Shown here piece by piece: positions 6,996 to 22,970 of a stretch of DNA of 24,081 bases. The position numbers and the translations under genes were made by a program. How positions within the stretch are numbered: the stretch's first letter is position 1; each line of letters opens with the position of its first letter. Below the pieces are notes generated by a model. It saw nothing but the letters and a program-made list of their open reading frames with translations, did not search any database and was not told where the DNA came from. Source of the DNA: a virus; IMG/VR virus record IMGVR_UViG_3300047095_000568, positions 1 to 24,081 of that record; one strand, given 5' to 3'.

Positions 6996-6997
6996 TT

Positions 6998-7411: not shown

Positions 7412-7420
7412 AAAACATAA

Positions 7421-7457
7421 AAGGGCGGGCGCACATAGATACGTCCGTCCTTTTTTT
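7421..7457 (+). terminator. internal terminator after the tail-tube gene
   Basis: AAGGGCGGGCG (7421-7431) pairs with CGTCCGTCCTT (7442-7452), with two G-T wobbles and a 10-base loop. A run of seven T (7451-7457) follows. No promoter with a TAnnTTTG box is visible before the next gene, so it is probably a leaky terminator that lowers expression of the genes downstream. Confidence 0.8.
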
Positions 7458-7468
7458 AAAATAACCAT

Positions 7469-7837
7469 ATGGCAGTACAATATATTGATTTTAATGGTGA
7501 GCAAACGCCCATACTTTTTGGTAACGCCGCATTTTACCACTACGAAAAAAGGCATAAAGAAAGCGGTTTTGCTGCTTTTATGCAGTCCGTACCGCAGGAC
7601 GAAACGGGCAATGTGGATATTAACAAAGTAAAGATTTCATTCTTTATTGATATTACAATGTGCGCACTAATCGCAGGCGGCAACAAAGAAAGAAAGCCGT
7701 TTTTGGGCATAGTTGACGACGTGGCAGCATGGATGGACAACGAAAATATGATGACCATCATGGAAATGATTACAGATAGTTTACCCATTGCAAAAGATCA
7801 AAAAGACGAAGCAACGGAGCAAGAAGCGGGGGAGTAG
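7469..7837 (+). CDS. tail assembly chaperone, first frame (gpG-like), 122 aa
   Basis: Lies between tube and tape measure, where tail assembly chaperones are found. It has no strong similarity that I can name. It is acidic overall, with helices in VDINKVKISFFIDITMCALI and VDDVAAWMDNENMMTIMEMI and a charged end. In lambda-like phages this protein coats the tape measure before tube polymerisation, and a fraction is extended by frameshifting. The 3' end overlaps an open -1 frame (7780-7837) that continues into the next gene, and the stop is preceded by a run of five G. The call rests on position and the overlap. Confidence 0.7.
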   Translation: MAVQYIDFNGEQTPILFGNAAFYHYEKRHKESGFAAFMQSVPQDETGNVDINKVKISFFIDITMCALIAGGNKERKPFLGIVDDVAAWMDNENMMTIMEMITDSLPIAKDQKDEATEQEAGE

Positions 7838-7860
7838 CGGGTGTTGATTATTGGCAAACA
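7780..7860 (+). other. probable -1 frameshift zone joining the two chaperone frames
   Basis: The frame of the following gene is open from 7780, after a TAG at 7777-7779, so it overlaps the last 19 sense codons and the stop codon of the chaperone gene. The stop is preceded by GCG GGG GAG TAG, with five G at 7828-7832. A slip by one base with GGG in the P site gives Gly-Gly-Val-Ala-Gly-Val-Asp-Tyr-Trp and a 229-residue fusion. The site is not a classical X-XXY-YYZ heptamer: GAG does not re-pair well as GGA. Mechanism is therefore inferred; the open overlapping frame is seen directly. Confidence 0.5.
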
Positions 7861-8157
7861 ATGATAGACGCTGCCGGATGGATTGGAATGTCTGAAAGCG
7901 AATTTTGGGAAACAACACCCCGATATTTTGCCGCACGGGTCAGGGGCAAGCAGCGAGACGACCGCGAAAAGTGGGTAATAGCGCGACAAACAGCCTATTG
8001 GACAATTTTACCGCACATGGGTAAAAAGCAAATAAAACCCACGGCGTTAGGCGTTTTTGAGTGGGAGCAGCAGCCATTGACAGTAAAAGAAATAACGCCA
8101 GAACAAAAGGCGGACATGGCCAAATTTAAAGAAATGGCATTAAAACTACTAAACTAA
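7861..8157 (+). CDS. tail assembly chaperone, second frame (gpGT/T-like), 98 aa from first ATG
   Basis: The first ATG is at 7861. Just upstream in the same frame lie Val-Asp-Tyr-Trp-Gln-Thr, and the sequence then runs MIDAAGWIGMSESEFWETTP. Tail chaperone families of the gene-transfer-agent/phage TAC type show the layout 'W, about 18 residues, F-W-x-x-T-P'. That puts the upstream Trp inside the domain and suggests the natural product starts before this ATG, by frameshift from 7469-7837. The remainder is basic, then helical (ITPEQKADMAKFKEMALKLLN). The stop is four bases before the tape-measure ATG. Confidence 0.7.
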   Translation: MIDAAGWIGMSESEFWETTPRYFAARVRGKQRDDREKWVIARQTAYWTILPHMGKKQIKPTALGVFEWEQQPLTVKEITPEQKADMAKFKEMALKLLN

Positions 8158-8161
8158 CAAC

Positions 8162-10981
8162 ATGGCAAATATTGCAGAATTAAATATAAGGCTGGGAGTT
8201 AGATTTAGAGATTTTGACAGGTCGATGAGGCAGGTGGAAAACCGCCTCAAGCAGACCGCACAATCAATGGACGGTATTGCTAATTCAATGGCGCAATCCT
8301 TTACCGCTCCATTTTTGGCCATTGGTGCGTTAGCAATTAAGGCGGCGGGTGATTTTGAGGCGTTAAAGTTGGCTATGCAAACCACGATGAAGGATGCAGG
8401 GTATTCAACAATTGAAACCACAAAGGAACTAGAGGCACTTAGAAAGGTTGCACTTGCGCCCGGCATTGATTTACAACAGGCCGTAAAAGGCTCAATTGCC
8501 TTGCAGTCGGTTGGTTTTAGTGCTGAAAGAGCGCGTAAAACATTAGAACAACTAGCAAATGGCGTAGCGGCGGCTGGTGGTAGTGCGGAAAACCTAGAGG
8601 GTGTTGTTAAGCAATTTGCGCAAATTTCGGCCAAAGGCACAGTATTACAGGAAGATTTAGGGATAATAAAAGAAAACATGCCCAGCGTTGTAAAGGCCAT
8701 GCGCGAGGCGTTCGGCACAACAACAGCGGAAGGAATACGAAACGCGGGTGTTTCGGCAGATCAATTTATAGATGGTATTACCAAACAACTTGCAAAAAAC
8801 GAACGTGTTCAAGGCGGTATAAAAAACGCAATTGACAACACACGCAGCGCAATTACTCAATTTTTCGCGGCAATTGGTGACGGTATAAATGAGGCGTACA
8901 ACCTAAACGCGGTTGCGGGCGCAATGAGTGACAAGATTAACGACCTTGTTACGGTGTTTAAAATGTTAGACCCTGAAACAAAAAAGAGTATTTTTAATTT
9001 TGCGCTTTACGCGGCGGCGTTCCCTATACTTATTAAAAGTATGGCGTTACTTTTTGGCGCAGGCCAACAAGTAATTGCCATGACGCGGCTTTTGTCAAGT
9101 GGGGCGGCAAGCGCGGGCGGTGCGTTATTGGGGTTTGCAGATAAATTTGGAAAACTAAACACGGCTATGAAAGTGGGCGCGGCTGGTGTTGCGCTGGTAG
9201 GTATTCTTGCACTTTACGCGGGTTATCAAAAATTATCAGATGGCGTAAATAAAGCCTTTGAGGCTCAAACTAAATTTGCAAAAGCAAAAGACGAAGTAAA
9301 CAAAGAGGCGGGCAAAGAAATTGCAATTGCAAATAAAAACATTGAGGCGTTAAAATCCGAAACAACATCAAGGGAGGAAAAAATAAAGGCGTTTAACGCG
9401 CTAAAAGAATCATACCCCGATTTATTAAAGCAGTACGACAACGAGAAAATATCAGTATCGCAGTTGACAATGTTACAAGATAGGCTCACAAAGTCTATTA
9501 TTAACAGGGTTGCAGAAACTAGAAAATCTGCCTTATTAGATGAACAGGCGGGCAAGATAGTAGAGGCGCGTTTAAAGAAAACACAATTAGAGGCGCAAGG
9601 ACTAAACGCCATTTATGGGGAAACGCAAGCGGGCTTTTTGAGGGGCGCAGAGGGTATGGGATTGGGTGGTTGGATGGGTACGGAGGCTAGTATTGTAGGC
9701 GAAGAAATGGCCAAACTTGACAAGGTGATAATGCAAGCAGAAAAGACTTCAAAATCACTTGAAGAGCAGTTTGCTAAAACTTTTGGGACAGGAACGAGTG
9801 CGGCGGAAGAGACGGCGGCAAACTTATACGCATTAAGAGATGCGGAGGTAGATTATAGTGAACTTAATAGCAAGTTTGCGGAAAACTGGAAAAAGAGGGA
9901 GGCGGGCAAAAGCCAAGCAACTACCAAATCAGGAAAATCAATATCCGCAATTTTTAAAGAGGTTTCAAAAGACCTTGACGACATAAATAAAAAAGCGGCG
10001 GCATTAGGGGCAACAGGCGGCGAAGATCATTTTGATGATTTTGCAAAGGGTATCGAAAGCGGTATTAGTAAATTAGTAGAAGCGGGCGCAAAAGTTGACG
10101 GCAAAGAAATAACAGCATTAAAGCAATTGGCGCGTGAAGGATTAGGGGCGCAATTAGTTGCACCCGACTTGCTGCCAACAGCGGCAACGGCGCAATCAGT
10201 CGGCACAAGATCGGCGGAAATTCCCGACGTTCGTATTGCCTACGATAAAGACGCACTCAATGAGTTTTTGAGCGACAGCCAAAAGATTGGTCAGGTTTTA
10301 GAGCAAATGAAGTCGGGCTTTATTTCAGCAAGTGAGGGGTTTGATGCAATTAACGCCATACTGGCAACGACAAATGAAAACTTTACAGGCACGGGGTTAA
10401 AAATGCAGGAAATGTCGTTTGCGTTTCAAGCGTTAGGAGAACAATTTCAAATGCTTGGGCAATCGTTTCAAGCGGGCGGCGATGCTCAAAAGGCGATATT
10501 TGATGCAGTGGGGGCAAGTATTGCAGACCTTACAAACGAAGGGAGCGTAAACATGAAAGACTTTGCCAAAGCCGCTCTTTTGAGTTCTATAAAAGTGGCA
10601 AAGGCATACGCGGTACAGGGTATTTTTGCGGCGGTTTCTAAGGCATTGCAAAGCGTACCTTTCCCGATAAATTTAGTAGCGGCGGCGGGCGCAGCGGGTG
10701 TTGCAAGCGCGTTGTTAAATGGCTTAGCAAATAAGATTTCAGCACCAAAACTTGCAAAGGGTGGTTTGGCATACGGCGAAACTTTGGCAATGGTTGGTGA
10801 TAATCCAAACGCTAGTGTTGACCCCGAAGTAATCGCACCACTATCAAAACTTAAAGACATAATTGGCGGCGGCGCAAGCGAAATAATGGTTGGCGGTACA
10901 TTTAGGATTAGGGGCGAAGATTTGATATACACAATTGAAAAAGCAAATACAGCACAAGCAAGGCGTTACGGCAAAAAATAA
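8162..10981 (+). CDS. tape measure protein, 939 aa
   Basis: The longest gene; its product sets tail length and passes through the tube during DNA ejection. Residues 1-240 form the conserved tape-measure domain (FDRSMRQVENRLKQTAQSM; AGDFEALKLAMQT; GIDLQQAVKGSIALQSVGFS; GTVLQEDLGIIKENMPSV). Hydrophobic segments lie at about 279-300 and 338-354. Long charged helices (about 360-560) follow, then an Ala-rich helical C-terminus. The end, GGLAYGETLAMVGDNPNASV with EVIAPLSKL, is a motif often closing these proteins. At roughly 0.15 nm per residue the tail would be about 140 nm long. It overlaps the next start by one base (TAATG). Confidence 0.93.
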   Translation: MANIAELNIRLGVRFRDFDRSMRQVENRLKQTAQSMDGIANSMAQSFTAPFLAIGALAIKAAGDFEALKLAMQTTMKDAGYSTIETTKELEALRKVALAPGIDLQQAVKGSIALQSVGFSAERARKTLEQLANGVAAAGGSAENLEGVVKQFAQISAKGTVLQEDLGIIKENMPSVVKAMREAFGTTTAEGIRNAGVSADQFIDGITKQLAKNERVQGGIKNAIDNTRSAITQFFAAIGDGINEAYNLNAVAGAMSDKINDLVTVFKMLDPETKKSIFNFALYAAAFPILIKSMALLFGAGQQVIAMTRLLSSGAASAGGALLGFADKFGKLNTAMKVGAAGVALVGILALYAGYQKLSDGVNKAFEAQTKFAKAKDEVNKEAGKEIAIANKNIEALKSETTSREEKIKAFNALKESYPDLLKQYDNEKISVSQLTMLQDRLTKSIINRVAETRKSALLDEQAGKIVEARLKKTQLEAQGLNAIYGETQAGFLRGAEGMGLGGWMGTEASIVGEEMAKLDKVIMQAEKTSKSLEEQFAKTFGTGTSAAEETAANLYALRDAEVDYSELNSKFAENWKKREAGKSQATTKSGKSISAIFKEVSKDLDDINKKAAALGATGGEDHFDDFAKGIESGISKLVEAGAKVDGKEITALKQLAREGLGAQLVAPDLLPTAATAQSVGTRSAEIPDVRIAYDKDALNEFLSDSQKIGQVLEQMKSGFISASEGFDAINAILATTNENFTGTGLKMQEMSFAFQALGEQFQMLGQSFQAGGDAQKAIFDAVGASIADLTNEGSVNMKDFAKAALLSSIKVAKAYAVQGIFAAVSKALQSVPFPINLVAAAGAAGVASALLNGLANKISAPKLAKGGLAYGETLAMVGDNPNASVDPEVIAPLSKLKDIIGGGASEIMVGGTFRIRGEDLIYTIEKANTAQARRYGKK

Positions 10982-13560
10982 TGGCTAAACGATTCTCAAG
11001 TACGTTCTATTCAGCAAAAAGCGTTTTATACGTTGTTGAAATTTGGGACTCTGCTTACAGCGGAACGGTAACGCCATTTACTATTTCAGGAAATAACTTT
11101 CAGTTACAGCAATCTGGGTCAGGCGACAAAATATTAAACCATATGTCTCCCACAAGTTGCCAATTTGATTTCTTTATACAAAACACGACGCACGAAGGCT
11201 TGATTACTGATTTGATAGACGCAACAGAAGGGCGTTTTACGGTTGCAATATTCCAGTCAACAACCACAAATTTGTATTGGGCAGGGCAAATTGTAGCAGA
11301 CATTGGGAGTATAGAGGAGGCGTATTATCCGTATGCGTTCACTATTAGAGCGACGGACGGACTCGGTTTGTTGAAAACGGTAGATTACAAAGACACGGGC
11401 GGCGCGTACACAGGCAAAGACAGGAGTATTGATATTATAAAAAGGTGCATAAAAAAACTACCTTATGTAGCGGTTCACTATACAAGTTCAAGCCCGTTTA
11501 TATCTACCATATTGGATATTTGGGCGGCAGGTATGACAAACATAGGAACCGGAACGTGTGCATTATACCAGTCTTACATTGATAATTCAGTTTGGCAGAC
11601 ATATGAAAAAGGCGTAGAAAAGTACACTAATTGCTACGATGTTATTGAGCATATACTAAAGCCGTTTATTGCACGTATAACCCAAAGAAACGGCCAGTTT
11701 TTAATTGAAAATATATTTTATCGTACTGAATCAATAGTAATACAACGCAAGTATTCACGAGATGGCGGGCTTTTAGATACGGGTAACTTTTTTGGCACAA
11801 ACACCATAAACCAAACAGCAAACGGCGCGTTGTTGGCAGGGGCGCAATATGAATTTTTTCCAGGACTATTAGAGGCGCACCACACCTACAAGTCAAACAC
11901 GCGGCGCAACTTTTTAGAAAGCGCGGCGGCGTTAAATGACACAAGCACCCTGTTAGACATAAAAAAGCCAATCAATGCAAACGGAGGCAGTTCTACTTTA
12001 AGGCTAACGGGTAATGTTGTACTTTCTTTGCAGTCTTTAGACCCTGATATAACTTTCGGTTCGCCATTCGAGCCGTTTTGTATAATCTTTAGAATAAATC
12101 TGTTTTTGGACACGGTTGGATTGTCGCGACCTTATACCGTGTTGCCAACCTTTCAAGTAAATTACGGAGCGACCGAGTGGGCGGCTTCGCCCGGGTTTTA
12201 TATTGCGCTCCGTATTGATAACGCGGCGTTTTTAGTAAACACAACAAGCGACGTTTTTACCTTTACGCAAGGCGTTGACGTGATGACCCCGGTAATGCCC
12301 GAATCATGCGAAGATTTTAGTATTTCTTTCGATGTTGAATCAATACAAAAGTACAGCGGCGGAACTTACAACTTAGCAGATTTTGAAATAGGTTTTCAGT
12401 TAAATAACCAGTGGCTAGAGGTTTACAGTTATGGCAATCCTGCAATAACAGAAGATGAGGTTGAGTATGAGACAATAAATACTACCAATACCACCAATAC
12501 GGCAAAATTAGAGCAAGATAGCATAATTGGTACGTCGTCAGACCCTAACAGTTTGGGGGCATTATGGATAAAGCCATCATCTACATTTACACTTGCAAAC
12601 GTTTGGCAAACAGGCATAGCAACGCCAAACACGCTACTTGAGCAACTTGTTACAAAAATAGCAATGTCGGGACAATACGCACCGACTAAAAGGTTAAACG
12701 GGGTTTTATATGGAACAATAGACAAGTTAAATAGGGTTTTATGGGAGGGCGAGTATTACCTGTTTTTGGGCGGCACGTGGAATGCAGACATGGACGAACT
12801 AACAGGCGATTGGGTTTTATTGCGCTATGATGTGAACTTTACGCCTTCGCCACCGATCAAAAAGATAAAGAAGGGCCCAGATCCGCCAACACACCCGCCA
12901 TCAAACGGATTAGGGGGCGCAAGTTATGAAATGGTAGCAAAACCTCCCGCAACTTTGCTCTATCCGGTTGCGGCAACTACGAGCGCGGTCGCTCTTTTGT
13001 CGGGCGCAATTACAACGCTACCAATCAGCGGAACGGCAACGGACGGAGATTTTTACATAGGTGACACGGTTACAATTGTAAACCCATTAACGGGCGAATT
13101 TACAAACTTAACAGTAACAGCCAACAGCGTCGCGGGTGACACATCGGTAGCGGTTAGCGGTACTTTGAGTGGTCAATATCCAGCAAATGCCCCGATCATT
13201 AAAAAGCCAAAAATAGGCGGGTCGGATTTGCCGCCGTTAGGTAGCGCGTTACAGGTTTTGCAGGTAAATGCGGCGGGAACAGGCTTGCAGTATTACAGCC
13301 AAAGCCAACAGGTCACAACGGGCGTAAATTACACCTTTGCCTTACCTGCCAAAAGGTGGGCGGTTGCGGTATCAATCGAAAGCGCGGCGCAAACTATCAC
13401 AATAGGCAAAACGAGCGGCGCGGGCGATTATAGCACATTGGACGTAGTAAGCGGCGAACCTAACACGGTCACGCTTTTTGTTTATGGCGGCGCAAGCGGA
13501 ACGAATATATTTTTTGCTGGAATTTCAGTAAGCACAATTATCACGATTTTAACAGTATGA
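10981..13560 (+). CDS. large tail-tip / baseplate hub-like protein, 859 aa
   Basis: The position after the tape measure, where distal tail and tail-tip proteins lie, is the main evidence. The N-terminal 135 residues are beta-rich, with MSPTSCQFDFFIQN, LYWAGQIVADIG and the IRATDGLGLLKTVDY segment. That layout recalls the tail-hub proteins of Bacteroidota phages as I remember them. The middle (about 200-600) is long, beta-rich and unfamiliar. After a proline-rich linker (about 630-650) comes an adhesin-like region with GDTVTIVNPLTGEF and then LGSALQVLQVNAAGTGL, a fibre-type motif. So it seems to join a hub to a fibre-like end. There is no signal peptide. It shares ATGA with the next gene. Confidence 0.75.
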   Translation: MAKRFSSTFYSAKSVLYVVEIWDSAYSGTVTPFTISGNNFQLQQSGSGDKILNHMSPTSCQFDFFIQNTTHEGLITDLIDATEGRFTVAIFQSTTTNLYWAGQIVADIGSIEEAYYPYAFTIRATDGLGLLKTVDYKDTGGAYTGKDRSIDIIKRCIKKLPYVAVHYTSSSPFISTILDIWAAGMTNIGTGTCALYQSYIDNSVWQTYEKGVEKYTNCYDVIEHILKPFIARITQRNGQFLIENIFYRTESIVIQRKYSRDGGLLDTGNFFGTNTINQTANGALLAGAQYEFFPGLLEAHHTYKSNTRRNFLESAAALNDTSTLLDIKKPINANGGSSTLRLTGNVVLSLQSLDPDITFGSPFEPFCIIFRINLFLDTVGLSRPYTVLPTFQVNYGATEWAASPGFYIALRIDNAAFLVNTTSDVFTFTQGVDVMTPVMPESCEDFSISFDVESIQKYSGGTYNLADFEIGFQLNNQWLEVYSYGNPAITEDEVEYETINTTNTTNTAKLEQDSIIGTSSDPNSLGALWIKPSSTFTLANVWQTGIATPNTLLEQLVTKIAMSGQYAPTKRLNGVLYGTIDKLNRVLWEGEYYLFLGGTWNADMDELTGDWVLLRYDVNFTPSPPIKKIKKGPDPPTHPPSNGLGGASYEMVAKPPATLLYPVAATTSAVALLSGAITTLPISGTATDGDFYIGDTVTIVNPLTGEFTNLTVTANSVAGDTSVAVSGTLSGQYPANAPIIKKPKIGGSDLPPLGSALQVLQVNAAGTGLQYYSQSQQVTTGVNYTFALPAKRWAVAVSIESAAQTITIGKTSGAGDYSTLDVVSGEPNTVTLFVYGGASGTNIFFAGISVSTIITILTV

Positions 13561-15872
13561 GAAAGATATTTATATTATTTTTGTTTTTGCCATTTTTGGG
13601 CATGGCGCAACCAGCGGAAGTAGCGGCAATAAGGATACGCGCAACCGAAAAACTGCAACTAAGCGACAAAACATTAACGGCAATAGTTGAGGCTATTACC
13701 GTTTTAAGTACACACGCCCAAAGCCCAACAGCAAAAGCGGTTTACGATTTGACAGCGGCAATGATAACGAGCGTATCCACAAACGCCACGTTATCTGGTA
13801 ACGGAACAAGCGGCGACCCTTTGAAAATTGCACAACAAAGCGCAACAAGTGGACAGGTTTTAAAGTGGAACGGTACGACTTGGCTGCCGGCAACAGACAA
13901 CAATACAGGCACGGTAACAAGCGTGTCAGTGACCCCCGCGCAAGGTGTTACCGCAAGCGTGACAAACGCCACAACAACGCCCAACATCAGCATAGGATTA
14001 GGCGCAATTACACCCACATCAGTAGCGGCATCCGGCAACGTTACAGGGGCAAATTTAAGCGGAACAAACACAGGCAATCAAATCCTCTCATACGCCGCGC
14101 CAAACATTTCTTTATCGGGCGGTGGCGGTTCGGTTGCTATACCGCAAGGGGACATAACAGGGACGGGCGCAAATACAAGATTAGCGTATTTCACAGGGGC
14201 AAAAACAATAACAGGCAGTGGAAACGCATTGTACGACGGCAACGGGTTAAATATTTTTGGACACAGGTTTATAAATTCTGGACTTATAATGCCCTATGCA
14301 GATACAAACGATTTATCAATAGTTGCAAGAAATAATTTTCACATGTACACGCTTGTTGCGCCGGGTCAGCCTGTTTTTACGGTAACAGCGGCTGGCAAAT
14401 TTGGCGTAAACAAATACAATCCAGTAGATTATTTTCATATTTTATCAAACGACATAAACACTTATATAACTGGCGAGACTACACAATTTGGGTCAAACGC
14501 TTCGCCCGCAACAGTCGGCTTTAAATTTATTGGAGGTGGCGCGTATCAATTGGGAGAAATAACAATGCAAGCGCGACTTGCAAATGTTTTAGAGGGTTTA
14601 ATGCAGTTTAAGTCACGAACGGCGGCTGGTTCTTTAGTTACAGCAATGGCAATAACTGGCGACAATGTAGGCATAGGCACTGTTAGTCCGGCTGCAAAAT
14701 TACATGTTGTTGGCGCGGCTCGAATAACAGGCAGTAGCGGTACTGGAACATCTATAATGCTACGAAATGCAAGCGGCGATATTTCAAACGCAACACTAGG
14801 CGCGGGTTTATCTTTGTCGGGCGGCACACTAAGCAGCACGGCAACAGGCACAGTAACAGGCACAGGCATAGCAAACAAAGTTGCATATTGGAGCGGAACA
14901 AACGCAATTACAGCGACTAACAATTTTGCATTTGACGGATCTAATTTATCAGTTGGCACGGCAACGCCGGGCGCGGGGCGGTTTAATGTAACAGGCAATA
15001 GCACAAGTGTAGGGCTGCAGGTTGACGCAGGCGCACTACCCGATTTTGGCTCAACGATGCAAATGAGAGCATCTAACGCCGCGCAAACAATATACGGAAT
15101 TGACGCGGAAGGCAACACAGGTGGAACAACAAACTACCTAAACAAGTTTTTCAATACTGGAACAGGCAGCAGCATCTTACAATTGGGTGCAACATCGGAC
15201 GGCACGGGCGACCCGGTTGTGCAGTACAATATCACAGGCGGCGGCAATGTTTGGGTAGGCGGCATAGACAATTCAGACGCGGACAAATTTAAGATACAGC
15301 CTACCACATCAATAGGCAGCACAACGACAGGCGTAACGGTAACAACCGCCGGACTAGTTGGGATAAACCAAGATGCTCCGTTAGTTTCTTTGCAAGTAGC
15401 AGGAACGGATGGAATCGCAGTACCCACAGGCACGTCAGCGCAAAGGCCAGTTTCTGCACTTCAAATAATTAGATACAATTCGCAGTTGCAAGGATTAGAG
15501 GTTAAAAATAGCGGCAATTGGCATCTTTTAAATAGTCAAAATTTAGTAAATAGTACAGGCTCTTTAACACCGGGATTAGCACTGGGAACAACGCCAACCG
15601 TGACAATAAACGGAGGCCACGAGTCAGCATACACAATAAGTTTAACGGTCGGAACTGCACCCGTGGCAAATGAAATAATTTATACGCGCACGTTTCCTTC
15701 AACATGGAGCAGCGCACCACGCCCCGTATTTTCAGCAGCAAACGCACTCGCAGCGTCCGAAATAACAAAATTCTATGTTGACAGTAGTACGTCAGGCTCT
15801 TATGTAATTAGGGCAAACGGCACACTAACGGCGGGTGGATTATACAGATTAAACGTTTTAGTACATAATTAA
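13557..15872 (+). CDS. long tail fibre with signal peptide, 771 aa
   Basis: Starts in an ATGA overlap. Residues 1-18 are a clean Sec signal peptide ending Leu-Gly-Met-Ala|Gln. The rest is fibre-like, with low-complexity Ser/Thr/Gly/Asn-rich beta sequence: the NATLSGNGTSGDPLKIAQQ and ATSGQVLKWNGTTWLPATD block, GTVTSVSVTPAQGVTASV, two related 'ANxLAYxxGxxxITxxxN' units, and VGIGTVSPAAKLHVVGAARI. Near residue 615 is GTSAQRPVSALQIIRYNSQ followed by LEVKNSGNWHLLN, a motif common before fibre tips. The last 100 residues are probably a beta-sandwich tip. No S74 chaperone is present at the end. Likely host recognition; the reason for export is unclear. Confidence 0.82.
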   Translation: MRKIFILFLFLPFLGMAQPAEVAAIRIRATEKLQLSDKTLTAIVEAITVLSTHAQSPTAKAVYDLTAAMITSVSTNATLSGNGTSGDPLKIAQQSATSGQVLKWNGTTWLPATDNNTGTVTSVSVTPAQGVTASVTNATTTPNISIGLGAITPTSVAASGNVTGANLSGTNTGNQILSYAAPNISLSGGGGSVAIPQGDITGTGANTRLAYFTGAKTITGSGNALYDGNGLNIFGHRFINSGLIMPYADTNDLSIVARNNFHMYTLVAPGQPVFTVTAAGKFGVNKYNPVDYFHILSNDINTYITGETTQFGSNASPATVGFKFIGGGAYQLGEITMQARLANVLEGLMQFKSRTAAGSLVTAMAITGDNVGIGTVSPAAKLHVVGAARITGSSGTGTSIMLRNASGDISNATLGAGLSLSGGTLSSTATGTVTGTGIANKVAYWSGTNAITATNNFAFDGSNLSVGTATPGAGRFNVTGNSTSVGLQVDAGALPDFGSTMQMRASNAAQTIYGIDAEGNTGGTTNYLNKFFNTGTGSSILQLGATSDGTGDPVVQYNITGGGNVWVGGIDNSDADKFKIQPTTSIGSTTTGVTVTTAGLVGINQDAPLVSLQVAGTDGIAVPTGTSAQRPVSALQIIRYNSQLQGLEVKNSGNWHLLNSQNLVNSTGSLTPGLALGTTPTVTINGGHESAYTISLTVGTAPVANEIIYTRTFPSTWSSAPRPVFSAANALAASEITKFYVDSSTSGSYVIRANGTLTAGGLYRLNVLVHN

Positions 15873-15877
15873 TCGAA

Positions 15878-16213
15878 ATGATAAATAATACAGCAGGCAA
15901 GGCCGACATAGGCTACACGCAAGGGGACGACATAGCGCACACATTCACCTTTTTAGATGAAGCAGGCGCGGCTATTTCGGTAAGCGGTTGGGCGTGGACT
16001 ATGGTAATAACAAAATGCAACGGTGACGCGGTCGCAACCTATACAAACGCAAGCGGTATAACTTTCGATAGTGCTAACGTTTTGCGCGTTACGCTTGCAA
16101 ATTCAATCGCAATATCTGATAATTTGATAGATGCAAATTATACACTCGCAGCGGTTGCAAGCGGCAAAAAACGAACATATCTATTTGGTCAGTTCAAAAA
16201 GCAAAAAATATAA
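15878..16213 (+). CDS. baseplate upper protein (BppU)-like small protein, 111 aa
   Basis: A small all-beta protein. The pattern is: GDDIAHTFTFLDEAGAAISV, then GWAWTMVITK, a Thr/Asn-rich loop, VLRVTLANSI, and YTLAAVASGKKRTYLFGQF. This order (a 'q-G-D' opening, a 'D-x-x-G-x-x-x-x-x-x-G-W' turn and a 'Y-x-L-x-x-x-x-x-G-x-x-x-T-x-L-x-G-x-F' end) is that of the BppU/DUF2479-type immunoglobulin-like domain, which anchors receptor-binding proteins to the baseplate. Its place between two fibre genes fits. No signal peptide, unlike the fibres. One-base overlap with the next gene. Confidence 0.65.
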   Translation: MINNTAGKADIGYTQGDDIAHTFTFLDEAGAAISVSGWAWTMVITKCNGDAVATYTNASGITFDSANVLRVTLANSIAISDNLIDANYTLAAVASGKKRTYLFGQFKKQKI

Positions 16214-16506
16214 TGAGTTGCACGACGACGGTAATAGTAACAGATTGTGGCGTAACGGTACATCCGCAAAATACGGAGGCAATCGTAAAGGTACAAAATT
16301 GCACTACACAGGTAATTATACCCTTTTGCGCTCCGTCCGTACCAGCCGCAAACCCGCCGGGGTGGTACACCCTTTTGAGTTACTATGATACCGACGAGGA
16401 AGCAATTGGAGCAGGACTAGCAGTAGGGCAAATTTATAAAGTAAAGACAACGGGCGGCGCGCTAGGATTAAAGCGCGGCATGATTGTCGAAATAGAAGCA
16501 ATTTAA
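16213..16506 (+). CDS. short Cys-rich fibre-associated protein, 97 aa
   Basis: Starts in a TAATG overlap. The N-terminal 40 residues hold four cysteines (MSCTTTVIVTDCGV, NCTTQVIIPFCAP) that could form disulphides. After a Pro-rich hinge (PAANPPGW) comes DTDEEAIGAGLAVGQIYKVK. This matches the 'D-A-x-A-x-A-A-G-V-x-x-G-x-x-Y' unit seen at the ends of many phage structural proteins, ending in GMIVEIEAI. Likely a small fibre or baseplate accessory. No signal peptide. Confidence 0.6.
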   Translation: MSCTTTVIVTDCGVTVHPQNTEAIVKVQNCTTQVIIPFCAPSVPAANPPGWYTLLSYYDTDEEAIGAGLAVGQIYKVKTTGGALGLKRGMIVEIEAI

Positions 16507-16518
16507 AAAATAAAAAAT

Positions 16519-18465
16519 ATGAGATTACTTTTTTTATCAATTTTTTTGATCGTAAATTTATTGGGCGCAAAGGATTGCAAAGCGCAAACAGGTACATTTA
16601 TTTGGACTAATGGCGCACCGACAACGAACCCGGGTGCGTCGGGTGCAAGATTTGCGGTTGACCGCGCTACGTTTAGGTGGTACGAATGGGTAAGCGGCAC
16701 AAGTTGGGTTCAAAGCGGCGACCGTATCCAACGCATTAGCGGTTGCGCCGCACCTGCCTATACGCCTACAATCCACAATGCCTATTTTGTAGTAAATGGG
16801 TGTACAGAACCCGAATTTTACTACTGGAATGGCACGGCGTGGAAATTGTTAAATGGCGGCGGCGGCGCAACTTATACGGCTGGGAGCGGTATTGCTATTT
16901 CGGGAACAAATGTAATTTCTAATACCGCGCCTAATGTGAACCAAACAATTAGTACAAGCGGCGCGGCTGGAAATATAACGCTATCGAACGGAGGCGGCAC
17001 ATTGAATTTAAACGTTAACGATGCAGACGCAAACCCTACTAACGAAATACAAAATTTGTCATTAACAGGTCAGGCATTAGGTATAAGTTCGGGTACTGGT
17101 GTTAATTTGCCCGTTGTTGGTGTTGCGGCGGGGGAAGGAATAGGCGTATCAAGTAGCGCGGGTGTTGTGACAGTTACAAATAATGGGCTATTGTCTGAAT
17201 CGGACGGCACTACAATAGATTTTACTACTACGGAAAAAGTATTGACTGGCGAAGTTCAATTAAACTCATTAGATTCAACTCATATTAAAATAGGCGGGGT
17301 GGCACTAGAGTGCATAAGTCAAGACGGAGCAAGTACTGGCTATGCTTTAATTTATGACGGATCAAACTGGACTCCTAGCGAAATAACAAGCGAATCTATT
17401 TCATGGCCTTTACTCGCTCCTAATATCAGATTTACTACACAATACTCATTTGAGGGAAACCAAACAGGGGGCTTAGAATACGCCTCCGATATAAAACTTA
17501 ATGCCGGAGGGAATAATGATGATATTATTCCAAAAATTTACATACAAGGATCGTCTACCACGACTAATGGCGGCGGCGAAATTTATATTAATGCAGGGAA
17601 CGGAGCAACTGTTGGCGGAGACGTTCTTATTAATGCGGGTTCTGGCCAAACGTCTAACGGGGGCAATGTTATTGTTTTTGCTGGAACTTCAGATACTGGA
17701 CAGGGCGGTGGAGTAAATATAAGCGCGGGCGCAAGCACAACAGAAGGTGCTGGTGGGGCATTCATTTTTAGTTCAGGATCGGGCGCAGGCGGTGGCCCCG
17801 GAGGGGATTTCAATATGTCTGCGGGAGGGTCGCTACTTAATAGTGGTGGTAATTTTATTATGCAGGGAGGGCAATCAGAAAACCTAACAGGTGGGAATTT
17901 TAGTATGGCAGGAGGTCAAGGCGGGGTTGACGGAGGAAGTTTTACTTTGTCGGGGGGGTATGGAGTGACTGGCGTCGGCGGAAACCTCACATTTTTTGCA
18001 GGAATAGGCGGCACATCGGAAGGTGAGTTAAAATTTCAGTCATCTTTTAGGCCGATATTCTTAAACACACAAGGAAGTAAATATAAACTACTTACTACTA
18101 CCCAAAGAAATGCTATTCCAACAACTGAAAGTTTATTATTATGGAACACAACTACAAAAAGTTTCAACATTCACGACGGAACATCATGGCACGAAATACC
18201 AAAAATCATAAAAGCATCCGCAACGCTCAACTTTCCATCCACGCCCGTACATTCAAGCAGCGACCTAACGGTGACAGTAGCAGGCGCGGCGGTTGGTGAT
18301 GTTGTTACGGTTGCGCCCGGACTTGCGGCAATATCGGCAGGTAGTTGTTTTACCGCGTGGGTGTCAGCGGCCAACACGGTAACTGTTCGATTTAATCACT
18401 ACCACGCAGGCGGCGCAACAGACCCCGTATCAGCGGTTTTCAACATAATTGTAACTAAGTTCTAA
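16519..18465 (+). CDS. second tail fibre with signal peptide and glycine-rich repeats, 648 aa
   Basis: Residues 1-23 form a Sec signal peptide with cleavage probably at Cys-Lys-Ala|Gln-Thr. An N-terminal domain follows with two aromatic 'W-x-x-G-x-x-W' stretches (TFRWYEWVSGTSWVQSGD; FYYWNGTAWKLLN), then fibre-like Thr/Gly/Asn sequence (TYTAGSGIAISGTNVIS). Residues about 351-508 are ten 15-residue glycine-rich repeats. Next comes TTTQRNAIPTTESLLLWNTT with FNIHDGTSWHEI, the same pre-tip motif class as in the fibre at 13557. A final beta-rich domain ends VFNIIVTKF. Probable receptor-binding fibre. Overlaps the next gene by one base. Confidence 0.8.
   Translation: MRLLFLSIFLIVNLLGAKDCKAQTGTFIWTNGAPTTNPGASGARFAVDRATFRWYEWVSGTSWVQSGDRIQRISGCAAPAYTPTIHNAYFVVNGCTEPEFYYWNGTAWKLLNGGGGATYTAGSGIAISGTNVISNTAPNVNQTISTSGAAGNITLSNGGGTLNLNVNDADANPTNEIQNLSLTGQALGISSGTGVNLPVVGVAAGEGIGVSSSAGVVTVTNNGLLSESDGTTIDFTTTEKVLTGEVQLNSLDSTHIKIGGVALECISQDGASTGYALIYDGSNWTPSEITSESISWPLLAPNIRFTTQYSFEGNQTGGLEYASDIKLNAGGNNDDIIPKIYIQGSSTTTNGGGEIYINAGNGATVGGDVLINAGSGQTSNGGNVIVFAGTSDTGQGGGVNISAGASTTEGAGGAFIFSSGSGAGGGPGGDFNMSAGGSLLNSGGNFIMQGGQSENLTGGNFSMAGGQGGVDGGSFTLSGGYGVTGVGGNLTFFAGIGGTSEGELKFQSSFRPIFLNTQGSKYKLLTTTQRNAIPTTESLLLWNTTTKSFNIHDGTSWHEIPKIIKASATLNFPSTPVHSSSDLTVTVAGAAVGDVVTVAPGLAAISAGSCFTAWVSAANTVTVRFNHYHAGGATDPVSAVFNIIVTKF
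17569..18042 (+). repeat. about ten degenerate 45-bp (15-residue) repeats coding Gly-rich rungs
   Basis: Within the second fibre, the protein cycles with a 14-16 residue period: Gly-Gly, a small or acidic residue, a hydrophobic residue, an alternating beta strand, then Ala/Gly-Gly and a loop. Examples are GGDVLINAGSGQTSN, GGNVIVFAGTSDTGQ, GGDFNMSAGGSLLNS and GGNFIMQGGQSENLT. The DNA copies have diverged, so the repeats are maintained at protein level. The layout suggests a solenoid or glycine-packed rod. Confidence 0.8.
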
Positions 18466-18926
18466 TGAAAAAATACATAACAATACTTATTTTATTGTGC
18501 AGCCTATCTACACAGGCGCAATATAAAATCACTCGCGCAAAGGTAGCGGGGTGGTCGGTCGTTGCGCTTGGTGGTGCAGCAGACGGATTACTCGAAGGCT
18601 ACCTACACGACGGGCGCACATCGTTTGAGCGCAAATGGAACGCATCAAAAACAGGGTTTTGGGGTTCTGAAAGTTGGCGTTCTGTTTATGTGGGCGGCGA
18701 CCCCGAAAAGGGTTTTAAGTCGGGTTTTATAAAATGGACGGGCGCAAATGATTTTTACCATATTGCCGACGACACGCGCAAAATTGGATATATCACAGGC
18801 GGCGTAATGATTGGAATTGGAACAAAAGCAAATACAAAATGGTGGCACTATGCAGCAGACTTTGGCATTTCGTTTGCCGCGTCTGCTATCAGTAAAAGTG
18901 CCGCTTATTACTACATAAGAAATTAA
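18465..18926 (+). CDS. exported or membrane-associated phage protein of unknown role, 153 aa
   Basis: Starts in a TAATG overlap with the fibre gene. The first 19 residues are a signal peptide ending Ser-Thr-Gln-Ala|Gln. The mature protein has a weakly hydrophobic stretch (VAGWSVVALGGAADGLLEGY), then KTGFWGSESWRSVYVGGDPE, then FYHIADDTRKIGYITGGVMIGIG and a C-terminal Ala/Ser-rich helix. Small signal-peptide proteins with the 'F-W-x-x-x-S-W-R-x-x-Y-x-x-G-D-P' pattern recur near fibres and lysis genes of Bacteroidota phages, as I recall them. Their job is not known. Envelope interaction or superinfection exclusion are possible; nothing here decides it. Confidence 0.7.
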   Translation: MKKYITILILLCSLSTQAQYKITRAKVAGWSVVALGGAADGLLEGYLHDGRTSFERKWNASKTGFWGSESWRSVYVGGDPEKGFKSGFIKWTGANDFYHIADDTRKIGYITGGVMIGIGTKANTKWWHYAADFGISFAASAISKSAAYYYIRN

Positions 18927-18930
18927 TTTT

Positions 18931-19800
18931 ATGAAAAAGATACTATTATTATTACTTGTTTGTTCCTGCTTTTCAGTAACGGCGCAAAGACGCATCATTG
19001 GGGCAAGCAACGTCACAACCATTTTAGCGGGCGAAGCAATCCCTAACTGGACGCTTGTTAGGATTACGGCGGGCAAGGCATGGAGAGCAAGCAATACAAA
19101 AATAGACAGCGCGGCGGTCGCTATTGCAATAGATACAGCGTTCGCAGCAAACGACACAATACAAGTTGCATACAGCGGCACATTGCAAGGTTTTGCGTTA
19201 TCAAAAGGCGCGGACTATTTTTTAGGAACAGGCGGCACATTCACCGCAACAAAGCCGACCACTATTTTTACACAAAAAATTGGTAGTTGGGTAGAAGATA
19301 GCACACTGCAATTAAATATACAACAGGCGTTACCCGTCGTAAATACAGAAACTTTTGTAAATTTACCGAGCGACATTAGCAATAGCACGATAACTTTAAC
19401 GGACGTAACAGGGCTATCATTTACAGCGGAAGCAAACACATCGTATGTAGTGCGGTTGTACGGTTTTGCCACATTTGCAAGCGCGGTAACAGGCATAGGA
19501 CTGGCATTGAACGCACCTAATGACGCTACGATAGTAATGGGGCGCGTTACAAATCAGATAGGGGCGCAAACGCTTAGCTCTATGCAACAGGTGCAAAATA
19601 ATGCAATAGCAGGCACAACGGCGATAAATGGTAGCGGAACAAGCGGCAACCCCGCCGCAACAATTAGCACGTATATCGAGGGTGTTTGGCTTGTTACGGT
19701 TGTAACGGGCGGCACAGTGCAAATGCGTTTACGGTCGGAGGTGGCAACAAGTAACGTAACATTAAAGGCAGGATCAAGAATAAGTTACCTTAAAATATAA
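18931..19800 (+). CDS. third fibre-like / receptor-binding protein with signal peptide, 289 aa
   Basis: Signal peptide of 19 residues ending Ser-Val-Thr-Ala|Gln. An N-terminal domain contains AGEAIPNWTLVRITAGKAW, IDSAAVAIAID and IQVAYSGTLQGFALSKGADY, plus a QKIGSWVEDSTLQLNIQQAL segment, a layout seen in phage fibre shaft proteins. The second half resembles a jelly-roll tip: TDVTGLSFTAEANTSYVVR, IGLALNAPND, then ISTYIEGVWLVT, GTVQMRLRSEV and the ending LKAGSRISYLKI. Together this suggests a receptor-binding protein or a shaft-plus-tip protein. Four bases separate it from the preceding gene and three from the endolysin. Confidence 0.72.
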   Translation: MKKILLLLLVCSCFSVTAQRRIIGASNVTTILAGEAIPNWTLVRITAGKAWRASNTKIDSAAVAIAIDTAFAANDTIQVAYSGTLQGFALSKGADYFLGTGGTFTATKPTTIFTQKIGSWVEDSTLQLNIQQALPVVNTETFVNLPSDISNSTITLTDVTGLSFTAEANTSYVVRLYGFATFASAVTGIGLALNAPNDATIVMGRVTNQIGAQTLSSMQQVQNNAIAGTTAINGSGTSGNPAATISTYIEGVWLVTVVTGGTVQMRLRSEVATSNVTLKAGSRISYLKI

Positions 19801-19803
19801 GTT

Positions 19804-20286
19804 ATGTCAATACCCAACGCCCGACTAATAACCGCAAATTTCTCACTTAGAGAAATGATGCATAGCGACATTGCAGCACGTGAAGGAATAGAAAACGTCC
19901 CAAACGAAAAACAATTAGCCGCTTTAACTGCTTTATGCGAAAACGTTTTACAACCTTTACGTGACAAACTGGGCGTACCTGTTCGAGTTTCGAGCGGGTT
20001 TAGGTGTAGGGCGTTAAATTCACATAAAGATGTGGGCGGTGCGCCAAATTCGCAGCATTTACGAGGCGAAGCAGCAGACATACACGCTAAAGGTTACACG
20101 GCAAACGAACTGTTTCACCTTATTTTATTGTCGGGCATAGAGTTCGATCAAGTAATTGAGGAGTTCGGCGAATGGGTGCATATTTCTTACACAACGCGCC
20201 GAAAAAACCGACAAAGCGCGATAATTGCAACGCGCCGCAAAGACGGAAGCGCAAAATACACAATATTAAATAACAATAAAAAATAA
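19804..20286 (+). CDS. peptidase M15-family endolysin, 160 aa
   Basis: A zinc peptidase that cuts peptide cross-links of peptidoglycan. The M15_3-type signature is complete: VRVSSGFRCRALNSH, then SQHLRGEAADI with zinc ligands His85 and Asp92, and EWVHISY with the third ligand His126. Size is normal for a single-domain enzyme. There is no signal peptide, so release should depend on a holin. ATG 19804 lies three bases after the fibre stop. It opens the lysis-like end of the operon. In some phages such proteins are tail-associated instead, but the small size and the nearby holin-like gene favour lysis. Confidence 0.92.
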   Translation: MSIPNARLITANFSLREMMHSDIAAREGIENVPNEKQLAALTALCENVLQPLRDKLGVPVRVSSGFRCRALNSHKDVGGAPNSQHLRGEAADIHAKGYTANELFHLILLSGIEFDQVIEEFGEWVHISYTTRRKNRQSAIIATRRKDGSAKYTILNNNKK

Positions 20287-20291
20287 CTATT

Positions 20292-20624
20292 ATGAGTGAA
20301 TTAGTAACAGGTTATTACGACACAAGCGACTTAGTAAAACGCCTTGAAAGTCAAACGGGACTTGACGAAGATGTTTTGCGCGACGTTATAAATTTAGCGT
20401 TTCAGAACATTGCAGAGGCGGCGGGGCAAGGCGTTAACGCGGTTGTGCTTGACGATATAGGAACGTTCCGTGTTGCGGCTTGTATAGGTCGCAGGTATGT
20501 CGTTGACGGCAAAGAGGTGATAAAGCCGGACTATCTGAAATTTAAGTTCAAAGGCGCGATTAAATTACGCAACATTGTTGCGGCTAATTTACGTGAACCA
20601 GTTAAGCACTTAGAAGTTAAATAG
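20292..20624 (+). CDS. HU/IHF-like DNA-binding protein, 110 aa
   Basis: Matches the HU fold pattern: an N-terminal helix pair (DTSDLVKRLESQTGLDEDVL then INLAFQNIAEAAGQG), the beta turn VVLDDIGTFRVAACIGRR, the basic arm YVVDGKEVIKPDYLKFKFK and a last helix KLRNIVAANL. HU dimers bend and wrap DNA. It is slightly longer than HU, with an N-terminal extension of about ten residues, as in HU-like Bacteroidota proteins. Its presence among lysis genes is unusual. The gene is followed by a structured RNA-like region. Confidence 0.85.
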   Translation: MSELVTGYYDTSDLVKRLESQTGLDEDVLRDVINLAFQNIAEAAGQGVNAVVLDDIGTFRVAACIGRRYVVDGKEVIKPDYLKFKFKGAIKLRNIVAANLREPVKHLEVK

Positions 20625-20633
20625 CAAAATTTG

Positions 20634-20680
20634 GCACGGTTTTTATATTACAGTAAGTAATAAAACGACCGTGCTGTAAT
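20634..20680 (+). promoter_or_regulatory. overlapping inverted repeats: possible RNA switch at a start codon
   Basis: Stem A pairs GCACGGT (20634-20640) with ACCGTGC (20668-20674), and can extend through TTTTA/TAAAA with a two-base bulge. Stem B pairs ATTACAG (20647-20653) with CTGTAAT (20674-20680). The two share C20674 and are interlaced, so they are either alternatives or, with one base pair lost, a pseudoknot. Stem B covers the A and U of the start codon at 20679; stem A leaves it free. There is no T tract, so it is not a simple terminator. Confidence 0.5.
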
Positions 20681-20939
20681 GATTCAATTAATGACGGAAT
20701 TACAAAAAAAAATATTAGAGCAAAGTATTCTGGTAGTGCTGCTATGTGCTTTAGTTTGGTATTTAAACGAGCAACTAAAAGAACAAAAGACGGAATTGAG
20801 GTCTGAAATACAGTTAGTTGCTAACCGCTTGCACATATGTGAAAGCGACCGCCTAAACCTGTCAATACAGGTAGCAGAAATGCAGGCAACGCTAGAGAGT
20901 TTTTCACAGCCTACAAAAAGTAGGAAAAAATCTAAATAA
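20679..20939 (+). CDS. one-span membrane protein with coiled coil, lysis-region (holin/spanin-like), 86 aa
   Basis: Two in-frame starts: ATG 20679 and ATG 20691, giving Met-Ile-Gln-Leu-Met. Residues about 16-28 (SILVVLLCALVWYL) form one transmembrane segment. A long charged amphipathic helix follows (LNEQLKEQKTELRSEIQLVANRL, in pieces) and the C-terminus is very basic (PTKSRKKSK). This is the build of an Rz-like inner-membrane spanin or a small holin. No lipoprotein partner is seen next to it. The start sits in a structured region. Confidence 0.65.
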   Translation: MIQLMTELQKKILEQSILVVLLCALVWYLNEQLKEQKTELRSEIQLVANRLHICESDRLNLSIQVAEMQATLESFSQPTKSRKKSK

Positions 20940-20943
20940 TATT

Positions 20944-21438
20944 ATGACAGACAAAAAAAGGGGCGGAGCAACGCCTGTAAAAGCCCCACTAACGGGCGAA
21001 ACATTAAAGGAAAAGTTCTTTTCCACAAACTTTATTTTAGCCGTTGTGCTTTTGGTCGGTGGCCTATTCGTAGGTTTTCCAAAGGGCGAAGCGGAAAAGG
21101 TCGTCGCGTCCCTGTTTACACTTATTGGTAGCGTAGGCGCGTTTCGAGTATTCTTTAAAACGGCGGAATTTTCGCCTGTTAAATGGATACAAAATTCTAA
21201 CACATGGAACTACCTTTCTACTATCTTTATCGCGCTATTTCCTGTTTTAACGCCCGATGTTTTTACGGCGTTACGGGCGGCAATAGAAGCAGGGATTGGA
21301 GGTAATTGGCAGGGCATTTTGACAGCCTTAATAAGTTTGGCTACAATTTTGTGGAACGTGTTTAAGAACGCGCAACTACCTAAAACACCCGCGGCGGTTA
21401 CGACAATTTTTGTACTGTTTTTTTTTGCCCTAATTTAA
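20944..21438 (+). CDS. multi-span holin-like membrane protein, 164 aa
   Basis: Starts five bases after the preceding stop. A basic, soluble N-terminus (first 26 residues) is followed by likely membrane segments at about 29-46 (FILAVVLLVGGLFVGF), 54-70 (VASLFTLIGSVGAF), 90-105, 122-138 and 147-164. That number of spans, the small size and the neighbouring endolysin favour a holin. No family is recognised with certainty. The last codons include a run of nine T (21418-21426) read as Phe-Phe-Phe. The S8 peptidase frame overlaps this 3' end. Confidence 0.65.
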   Translation: MTDKKRGGATPVKAPLTGETLKEKFFSTNFILAVVLLVGGLFVGFPKGEAEKVVASLFTLIGSVGAFRVFFKTAEFSPVKWIQNSNTWNYLSTIFIALFPVLTPDVFTALRAAIEAGIGGNWQGILTALISLATILWNVFKNAQLPKTPAAVTTIFVLFFFALI

Positions 21439-21515
21439 GCGGGCAAACTAACAGAAATTTACGGAGCGCGTACATAGAGCAGGTTCAGCAACTTGAAAAA
21501 GATACTTTCGAGATT
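21384..21515 (+). other. open -1 frame linking the holin-like gene to the S8 peptidase
   Basis: The S8 frame is open from 21384, after a TAA at 21381-21383, and runs without a stop to 22967. It has no ATG or GTG upstream of the catalytic domain. In the holin frame the sequence CTG TTT TTT TTT GCC (T9 at 21418-21426) is an ideal slip site: both P- and A-site TTT re-pair after a one-base slip. The resulting frame continues Cys-Pro-Asn-Leu-Ser-Gly-Gln, then YIEQVQQLEKDTFEILPQPG, which looks protein-like. A miscount of T in sequencing would give the same picture. Confidence 0.55.
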
Positions 21516-22970
21516 TTGCCGCAGCCTGGTGAATTTCCGCAAAACATCGAAAGCGGTGTAACTAAACGGGACGGCACACGGGTTTTAGTGTCTAATTGGG
21601 GTTCAGAACAGCACAAACTAAACGCGCTCCGTAATCGCATTGCAGCGGAATGCAAAAATAAGGTACATATTAGGGTAGTTGATACCGCAATGGATACCGA
21701 CCACGCGCAATTGCAGCAGGGCAAACAGGCGGGGTATAATTACACTACCGACGCACGGGGAATTGATCGTAACGGACACGGGACGCACGTCGGCGGTATT
21801 ATGTTTGCACAGGATTTTGGCATTTCGTTCGACCTTATCAAATCGGGCGTTCTTACTTTCGAGTTTGACCAAATTTTAGGGGCAACGGGCGGCGGTTCGT
21901 TTGAGTGGTTTAGGTTGTGCGAAGTAGATCAACTTTCAAAAGATAGAGCAAGAAAGGCGGCGGGCGTTCGCACGGTTGTTTCAGGTTCGTTTGGCGGCAA
22001 CACGGCGGCAATTGGTAACGTAGAGGCAGCAATGAAAGCAATAACAGATTTGGGCGGCGTGTACTGCATTGCGGCGGGCAACACAGGCGGCGAAGGCGTA
22101 CAATACCCGGGTTCGTCTCAGTACTCAATTACGTGTGCTTCACTCGATCAATCAGGCGGTCGTTCATCTTACAGCACACAAGGCGTACAGGTTTGGAACG
22201 CGCAGCCGGGGCGAAGTATTCAAAGTTGCTGGTTAAATAATCAATACGCTACAATTTCAGGTACAAGCATGGCAACGCCTTTTTTATCGGGCGTGGTTGC
22301 TATTGCAATATCAAAGTGGGGCGATTTGCTGCCTACTTACACGGCGGTTAAAACGTATTTAGCGGCTGTTTCTAGGGACATAGCACCGACGGGCAAAGAT
22401 AACGGCACTGGGTACGGTATCGCTTTAATAGAGGCGGTTTTGAATACTAGACCCGGCACGGTTGTACCGCCAACACCACCACCAACACCACCAGGCGATC
22501 CGGTACGCCCAATACGAATTTACACACTAAATTTTAAAAACGACTATAAAATGTATTGGGGCGAAAATATACCGCTACCTAGTACGCCGCTACCTAGGAA
22601 GCCAGTGCCGTCTGCCATACCGCAAATACAAAGACTAAGTGCAAAAACGATAAAAGCAAATAGTACCAAATTTGTTACGATTTCCGAAATTGAACTATCT
22701 GTAAATAGCAATACAAATGCAGACGTAGAGCGCAAAAGAATAGCGGAAGCATTTAGTACGCTTGTATTTGCTAACAGGGGGCTTGTGCTTGCTCAAGGTT
22801 CGGACTTTGCCGACGCGGTGTATTGGAGTTCCTATTTTGCCGAATTATTGATCTATACGCAATATAAGACAAAGATACCGATTAATATTACTCGAATAAC
22901 AGGAAGCGACAACAGCGGCAATGTAGTAACGTGGACAAATGACCAGTTGCGGCACTTTCCAAAAAATTAG
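21516..22970 (+). CDS. subtilisin-family (S8) serine peptidase, 484 aa from a TTG start
   Basis: A serine endopeptidase with the complete S8 triad: Asp56 in VVDTAMD, His88 in NGHGTHVGGI and Ser251 in ISGTSMATPFLSG. The oxyanion Asn189 is in IAAGNTGG. After the catalytic domain a proline-rich linker (about 317-332) leads to a C-terminal region of some 150 residues that I do not recognise. No signal peptide or inhibitor-type propeptide is visible. The TTG at 21516 is the only usual start codon in frame before the domain; the first Met is residue 59, inside the Asp motif. The sequence upstream is open in frame back into the holin-like gene, so the true product may be longer. Role unknown: virion processing, envelope degradation or exclusion are all possible. 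Confidence 0.85.
   Translation: MPQPGEFPQNIESGVTKRDGTRVLVSNWGSEQHKLNALRNRIAAECKNKVHIRVVDTAMDTDHAQLQQGKQAGYNYTTDARGIDRNGHGTHVGGIMFAQDFGISFDLIKSGVLTFEFDQILGATGGGSFEWFRLCEVDQLSKDRARKAAGVRTVVSGSFGGNTAAIGNVEAAMKAITDLGGVYCIAAGNTGGEGVQYPGSSQYSITCASLDQSGGRSSYSTQGVQVWNAQPGRSIQSCWLNNQYATISGTSMATPFLSGVVAIAISKWGDLLPTYTAVKTYLAAVSRDIAPTGKDNGTGYGIALIEAVLNTRPGTVVPPTPPPTPPGDPVRPIRIYTLNFKNDYKMYWGENIPLPSTPLPRKPVPSAIPQIQRLSAKTIKANSTKFVTISEIELSVNSNTNADVERKRIAEAFSTLVFANRGLVLAQGSDFADAVYWSSYFAELLIYTQYKTKIPINITRITGSDNSGNVVTWTNDQLRHFPKN
22572..22601 (+). repeat. two 15-bp copies in the S8 C-terminal region
   Basis: CCGCTACCTAG occurs at 22572-22582 and 22587-22597, a 15-base period. It encodes Pro-Leu-Pro-Ser-Thr and Pro-Leu-Pro-Arg-Lys in the proline-rich part of the S8 protein. 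A recent small duplication is likely. Confidence 0.65.

Follow-up and report, generated by a model that had tools for sequence, protein, structure and literature searches.

Tandem tail-region genes with Sec signal peptides in a Bacteroidota siphophage contig, and a possible periplasmic route for its fibres

The window, as we call the whole stretch of DNA analysed, corresponds to a linear 24,081-base IMG/VR record, a Bacteroidota siphophage contig with about 30 called genes (Table 1). Roles of genes without a match were taken from gene order and from homology to phage phi39:1. The open reading frames of main interest, named here by their start positions, are 13557, 16519, 18465 and 18931, all of which are present; they follow the tail genes and are followed by the endolysin gene.

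Table 1. Features of the window; a slash within a sequence marks the putative cleavage position
Feature	Position	Strand	Remark
Portal	1278		siphophage order
Protease	between portal (1278) and capsid (3411)
Capsid	3411
Tape measure	8162-10981
Large tail protein	10981-13560		no signal peptide
C-terminal 86 residues of the 10981 protein	13300..13557	+	candidate docking domain
Large fibre-type protein, 771 aa	13557..15872	+	signal peptide
13557 signal peptide, residues 1-17	13557..13607	+	MRKIFILFLFLPFLGMA/QPAEV
Small protein, 111 aa	15878..16213	+	no signal peptide; weak phrog_1084 match
Small protein, 97 aa	16213..16506	+	no signal peptide (rule-based scan)
Fibre-type protein, 648 aa	16519..18465	+	signal peptide
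16519 signal peptide, residues 1-22	16519..16584	+	MRLLFLSIFLIVNLLGAKDCKA/QTGTF
153-aa protein	18465..18926	+	signal peptide 1-18; helical prediction for the mature part
18465 signal peptide, residues 1-18	18465..18518	+	MKKYITILILLCSLSTQA/QYKIT
Receptor-binding-type fibre, 289 aa	18931..19800	+	signal peptide; phrog_4368 match
18931 signal peptide, residues 1-18	18931..18984	+	MKKILLLLLVCSCFSVTA/QRRII
M15-type endolysin	19804		after the four signal-peptide genes
Membrane protein and subtilase	near the end of the window
T9 run, then -1 frame ...FFCPNLSG/QTNRN... and subtilase domain	21418..22970	+

Signal peptides were called with a purpose-written, untrained rule set, which flagged a Sec signal peptide in these four genes only, among the roughly 30 called. 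The initial annotation had described four signal peptides ending at an Ala-Gln cleavage site and their lack in the structural neighbours 10981, 15878 and 16213; the open reading frames and the scan confirm both points, for 16519 by way of a second site. The automatic site in 16519 is GA/KDCKAQ, and CKA/Q after residue 22 is a second permitted site behind a charged stretch, so its cleavage site is the weakest of the four. No lipoprotein was called among the four in the same scan. When the N-termini of the window's genes were shuffled, 3.4% passed the signal-peptide rule and 0.18% passed it with Gln at +1, and shuffling of residues 2-24 of the four proteins themselves gave a signal with Gln in 0.6-1.2%. 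About 0.05 such genes are expected among 30; three were called outright with Gln, and the fourth has it at a permitted site. Among tail control genes put through the same scan, none was flagged in HK97 and only lom, the gene for a known outer-membrane protein, in lambda. A lipoprotein-like open reading frame (MKNTTLILIAFSIVSLAM/CKK) lies at 439-687.

The four products had been taken for tail-region fibres, a reading that is supported for 13557, 16519 and 18931 but probably does not hold for 18465. A search of named fibre families linked 18931 to phrog_4368 (function unknown) and gave no match for the other three, and 13557 had no match among the annotated records of the phage collection. The 13557 protein carries repeats of the GIGTxxPAAKLHV type, which is known from tail fibres. 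Its residues 11-118 are 62% identical to a signal-peptide protein of one related contig (L007), and its C-terminal part is 56% identical to one of another (L015). The N-terminus of 16519 is constant among relatives of 648, 883 and 482 aa, and its signal peptide differs between the window and L005 by three synonymous changes and no amino-acid change. In 18931, residues 1-138 are kept in L023 and the sequence changes beyond them; compared with relatives, 8-10 of the 18 signal-peptide residues differ as against 1-5 of the next 60, and despite this divergence the charge, the hydrophobic core and the Gln are all retained. All three proteins thus combine conserved N-terminal with exchanged C-terminal parts when compared with L005, L007, L015 and L023, and since this is the habit of tail fibres, we assign them a tail-fibre architecture. 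In a low-confidence model (pLDDT about 55-69 in most of 133-289, lower around 212-243), residues 133-289 of 18931 resemble TNF/C1q-like lectin heads with a best Z of 9.3 (117 residues, rmsd 2.7), the neighbours being C1q-type heads and the TNF-like lectins PLTL and BC2L-C (N-terminal domain); this is a likeness of predicted fold that at 16% sequence identity does not imply function.

The last 86 residues of 10981 have a counterpart in L007 and L008, where a free-standing small protein is encoded 5' of a signal-peptide fibre gene (42.5% identity to L007:9534-9953, 28% to L008:8409-8852). Judged from these alignments, the C-terminal domain of 10981 is a candidate docking partner for the fibres. 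The 15878 and 16213 proteins are possible cytoplasmic adaptors.

The 18465 model is helical at a low mean pLDDT of 50, the protein has no family match, and a genome scan with its family returned zero relatives. The related proteins of L015 and L023 are longer by a stretch of ~80-100 aa that follows the signal peptide, and a relative in L018 sits in a different gene context. L017:10450-11010 was rejected as a relative; the true relative in L017 is the adjoining gene, 9824-10423. 18465 is probably exported alongside the fibres without being a fibre itself. It may act in the periplasm, in the membrane or in lysis, and a role at the surface is also possible.

Related IMG/VR contigs, found by protein search, hold 2-5 signal-peptide genes in the post-tail module: five in L005 and in L015 (the latter count including one gene missed by the rule set), four in L023 and L024, three in L008 and L009, and two in L007. 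The trait persists where the upstream genes are unrelated and where the genes of a slot are swapped. The interval between 16519 and 18931 is filled in different ways, by 18465 in the window, by a pair of other genes in L005 and by different ones again in L015, and the interval genes examined in relatives carry signal peptides. The region 13557-22970 is largely common to L015 and L023, with 51-99% identity by gene and mostly more than 80% from 18465 on, and L023 matches most of 16519-22970 at 74-98%. The head and tail genes of the window, in contrast, had no protein match in the compared stretches of L015 and L023, and genes 1278-13560 had no DNA match in the whole 64.9-kb L023 record in a search run without a positive control. 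On this sequence comparison, the export-tagged fibre cassette appears to be a mobile module, passed between Bacteroidota phages that are not otherwise related. The presence of signal peptides in relatives holds for homologues that keep the N-terminus, but not for gp047 of phi4:1, an MS/MS-identified virion protein that has a domain in common with phi10:1 gp092 and carries no signal peptide. Homologues with other N-termini, named in the initial annotation as evidence against its reading, are thus seen only in part.

Proteins tagged in this way are annotated as virion components in four Cellulophaga phages: phi10:1 (gp091-094), phi39:1 (gp25-26), phi19:1 (gp101-104) and phi18:3 (gp085-087). These 13 MS/MS annotations are depositors' record notes, and a lysate protein could co-purify. 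Gln is at +1 in 12 of the 13, with Lys in phi19:1 gp104. One of them, phi39:1 gp25 (MRKLILFFGLIFCLEMAA/Q), was missed by the rule set because Met is disallowed at -3, and was counted by eye; in phi19:1 gp101, INA/Q is present alongside the lipoprotein site that the rule set preferred. phi39:1 gp23 was excluded from the count since its annotated start overlaps gp22, which makes its N-terminus doubtful. The head and tail-tube MS/MS proteins of phi10:1 and phi39:1 were unflagged. Going by these 13 annotations, signal-peptide-tagged fibres reach virions in other phages.

With 26-27% identity in portal and tape measure, phi39:1 is a distant relative of the window phage, as judged from these two proteins. 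Like the window, the fibre and pectate-lyase modules of all four Cellulophaga phages have signal-peptide genes in tandem behind the tail genes, preceded by the tape-measure gene in phi19:1 and phi39:1, and an N-terminal module common to proteins with different C-terminal parts; residues 1-43 of phi10:1 gp094 match a pectate lyase family as well as a tail protein. The Cellulophaga records cite presence in the virion by MS/MS, whereas the window is known from sequence alone. Moreover, unlike the pectate-lyase modules, the four proteins of the window have no enzymatic domain recognised by profile or domain matches.

Fibres of tailed phages are normally assembled in the cytoplasm, and the particles as a whole are held to be assembled there. 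We propose that 13557, 16519 and 18931 are receptor-binding fibres that pass through the periplasm on their way into the virion, and give the full route a probability of roughly 0.6. Each fibre would be synthesized late and sent through the host Sec channel, and signal peptidase I would remove the signal peptide at Ala-Gln, leaving an N-terminal Gln that the host could cyclise to pyroglutamate. The fibres would then be kept in the periplasm, heads and tails meanwhile assembling in the cytoplasm together with 10981, 15878 and 16213; once holin and endolysin had opened the cell, the fibres would dock on the tail by their conserved N-terminus. Of these steps, cleavage of the peptide, residence in the periplasm and attachment at lysis are inferred, as is the transfer of the Cellulophaga case to this contig. 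Three readings had been offered, with no preference, in the initial annotation, of which maturation in the periplasm is the best supported, owing to the MS/MS-annotated signal-peptide fibre and pectate-lyase proteins of the four Cellulophaga phages, whereas a membrane tether and decoration of the cell surface are disfavoured. Slightly better than an even chance is what we would give the broader proposal, that a set of tailed Bacteroidota phages builds its host-binding fibres outside the cytoplasm, from a mobile cassette whose Sec-exported and Gln-capped products mature in the periplasm and join the particles at lysis.

That exported proteins of Bacteroidota tend to have Gln at +1, as assumed at the outset, is established and applies to about 71% of the phylum's signal peptidase I substrates (PMC10653852). 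Of the 57 signal-peptide proteins of at least 100 aa in our panel, 50-51 have Gln either at +1 or at a permitted site close by, a count made partly by eye. Together with the established rule, this retention and the pattern-preserving divergence of the 18931 peptide favour cleavage after export. Pfam and NCBIfam gave no match to a type IX sorting domain in any of the four proteins and so do not point to the known surface route; this, the retained Gln and the fast but pattern-preserving change favour Sec export, cleavage and a stay in the periplasm. The hydrophobic N-terminus might instead stay uncleaved, as an inner-membrane tether or as a hydrophobic docking segment kept in the virion. Cytoplasmic assembly is normal for tailed-phage fibres, and a soluble cytoplasmic route would equally explain signal-peptide proteins in virions. 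However, a Gln kept at the cleavage position across unrelated genes has no evident use in an uncleaved protein, which disfavours the tether, and peptides that diverge fast yet keep their charge, hydrophobicity and an end in Ala or Gly before Gln are unlike a specific docking segment. We therefore consider an uncleaved N-terminus unlikely.

The exported proteins might also act on the surface or envelope of the infected cell, for example by blocking superinfection or stripping the capsule, without being virion parts here. There is a parallel in lambda, where lom, a signal-peptide gene inside the tail-fibre region, adjoins J; unlike the run in the window, it is a single gene, and it encodes an outer-membrane protein that is not part of the virion. 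Envelope modification has been proposed for phage genes with Gln at +1 in the available text of PMC10367356, and 18465, not fibre-like and with its relative in another gene context, would suit such a role. Against this, the 13 fibre-region proteins with similar tags are annotated as components of virions, and the four proteins show neither a type IX sorting-domain match nor a lipoprotein call. As three of the four moreover have the constant N-termini and variable C-terminal parts of tail fibres, surface display is disfavoured, and we hold an action confined to the host envelope to be quite improbable. Still less probable in our view is a dual use, in which exported fibres would be active or displayed before lysis, such as pectate lyases on exopolysaccharide, and would also enter the virion. 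Enzymatic signal-peptide fibres do occur in the cassette (phi10:1 gp093, phi39:1 gp26), and lyases are described as helping phages to reach cells or progeny to leave the matrix (PMC8776804, available text), but none of the known ways through the outer membrane was recognised and the window's own four proteins have no recognised enzymatic domain.

With respect to why fibres would be exported through the periplasm, disulfide formation was rejected as a reason, cysteine being rarer in the signal-peptide proteins (0.49%) than in their neighbours (1.08%). The O-glycosylation motif D[ST][AILMTV] was observed 139 times as against 110 +/- 10 on shuffling, in related, non-independent sequences, and given this modest enrichment, periplasmic O-glycosylation is only a lead from the sequences.

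Signal-peptide fibres are a minority trait among Bacteroidota phages. No signal peptides were found in the fibre regions of phi46:1, phi12:1 and Flavobacterium phage hemulen9-1, which rules out a universal trait and argues that export is not a general need. Likewise, 11b, B124-14, P2559S, RAP44 and P12024S showed no run of signal-peptide fibre genes. Among contigs picked by their M15 endolysin, an upstream Gln-type signal-peptide gene of at least 150 aa was present in 6 of the 31 clusters with low Shine-Dalgarno use and in none of the 9 with high use, a contrast between host groups that is not significant (Fisher p = 0.31). One of the six positive clusters, L064, may be a host gene.

Phage genes of this kind have been noted before. 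Porphyromonas gingivalis phages carry five Q-rule genes of unknown function, and those of the Nixviridae are, like the window's genes, predicted substrates of the host signal peptidase I with Gln at +1; the available text suggests outer-membrane modification, without a link to fibres or virions (PMC10367356). The Cellulophaga phages Nekkels and Ingeline encode lyases with 'signaling peptides', which resemble the window in their signal peptides, there on lyase-domain proteins, and the Nekkels module is homologous to that of phi10:1. The available text of that report notes that phage lyases are usually located on tails and does not take up how the signal peptide would agree with this (PMC8776804). 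The target proteins of phage DGRs have no signal peptides (PMC6199706). We found no link of Sec-tagged fibres to virion assembly in the accessible portions of the open-access literature, subscription papers falling mostly outside this search. If the periplasmic route is correct, phage assembly would take place in two compartments, with fibres passing through the periplasm and joining at lysis. The fibres would then be open to periplasmic modifications such as pyroglutamate, recombinant fibre work on Bacteroidota phages should start from the mature N-terminus, and a role would be on offer for some phage Q-rule genes of unknown function.

Beyond the endolysin gene, the stretch 21418..22970 has a counterpart in L005 and L015 that shares its reading frame with the membrane protein upstream of it, and on account of this arrangement the subtilase may be a further exported product with Gln at +1.

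In the window, the stop of the membrane protein ORF lies shortly behind a T9 run; the subtilase carries on past this run in the -1 frame. In two related contigs (L005 and L015), a single ORF spans the same run and joins membrane protein and subtilase, and in a third, L023, the two are separate ORFs, split as in the window. Both products could be obtained via slippage at the run. After the last hydrophobic stretch sits LSG|Q, a possible additional cleavage site with Gln at +1.

Features of the window
Feature	Position	Detail
Membrane protein ORF and subtilase	20944-22970	T9 run at 21418-21426
Lipoprotein-like ORF, 82 aa	439-687	N-terminus MKNTTLILIAFSIVSLAM|CKK

In Cellulophaga phage phi10:1 (46438-47391), residues 1-43, comprising the signal peptide and ~24 further residues, match N-termini in two families, one of tail proteins and one of pectate lyases; this points to an exchangeable export-and-dock module. 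In phage phi39:1 (15917-16291), gp23 overlaps gp22 by ~145 bases from its annotated start; this start may be wrong, because a later Met would give gp23 a strongly hydrophobic N-terminus.

Relatives of the 153-aa signal-peptide protein encoded at 18465 (L015:9713-10420 and L023:13474-14247) carry ~80-100 added residues between signal peptide and conserved domain. A 1046-aa protein of contig L012 (9926-13066) has a signal peptide ending in A|Q and is preceded by a 777-aa protein of tape-measure size. The lipoprotein-like ORF directly follows gene 98-436, beyond the fibre region.
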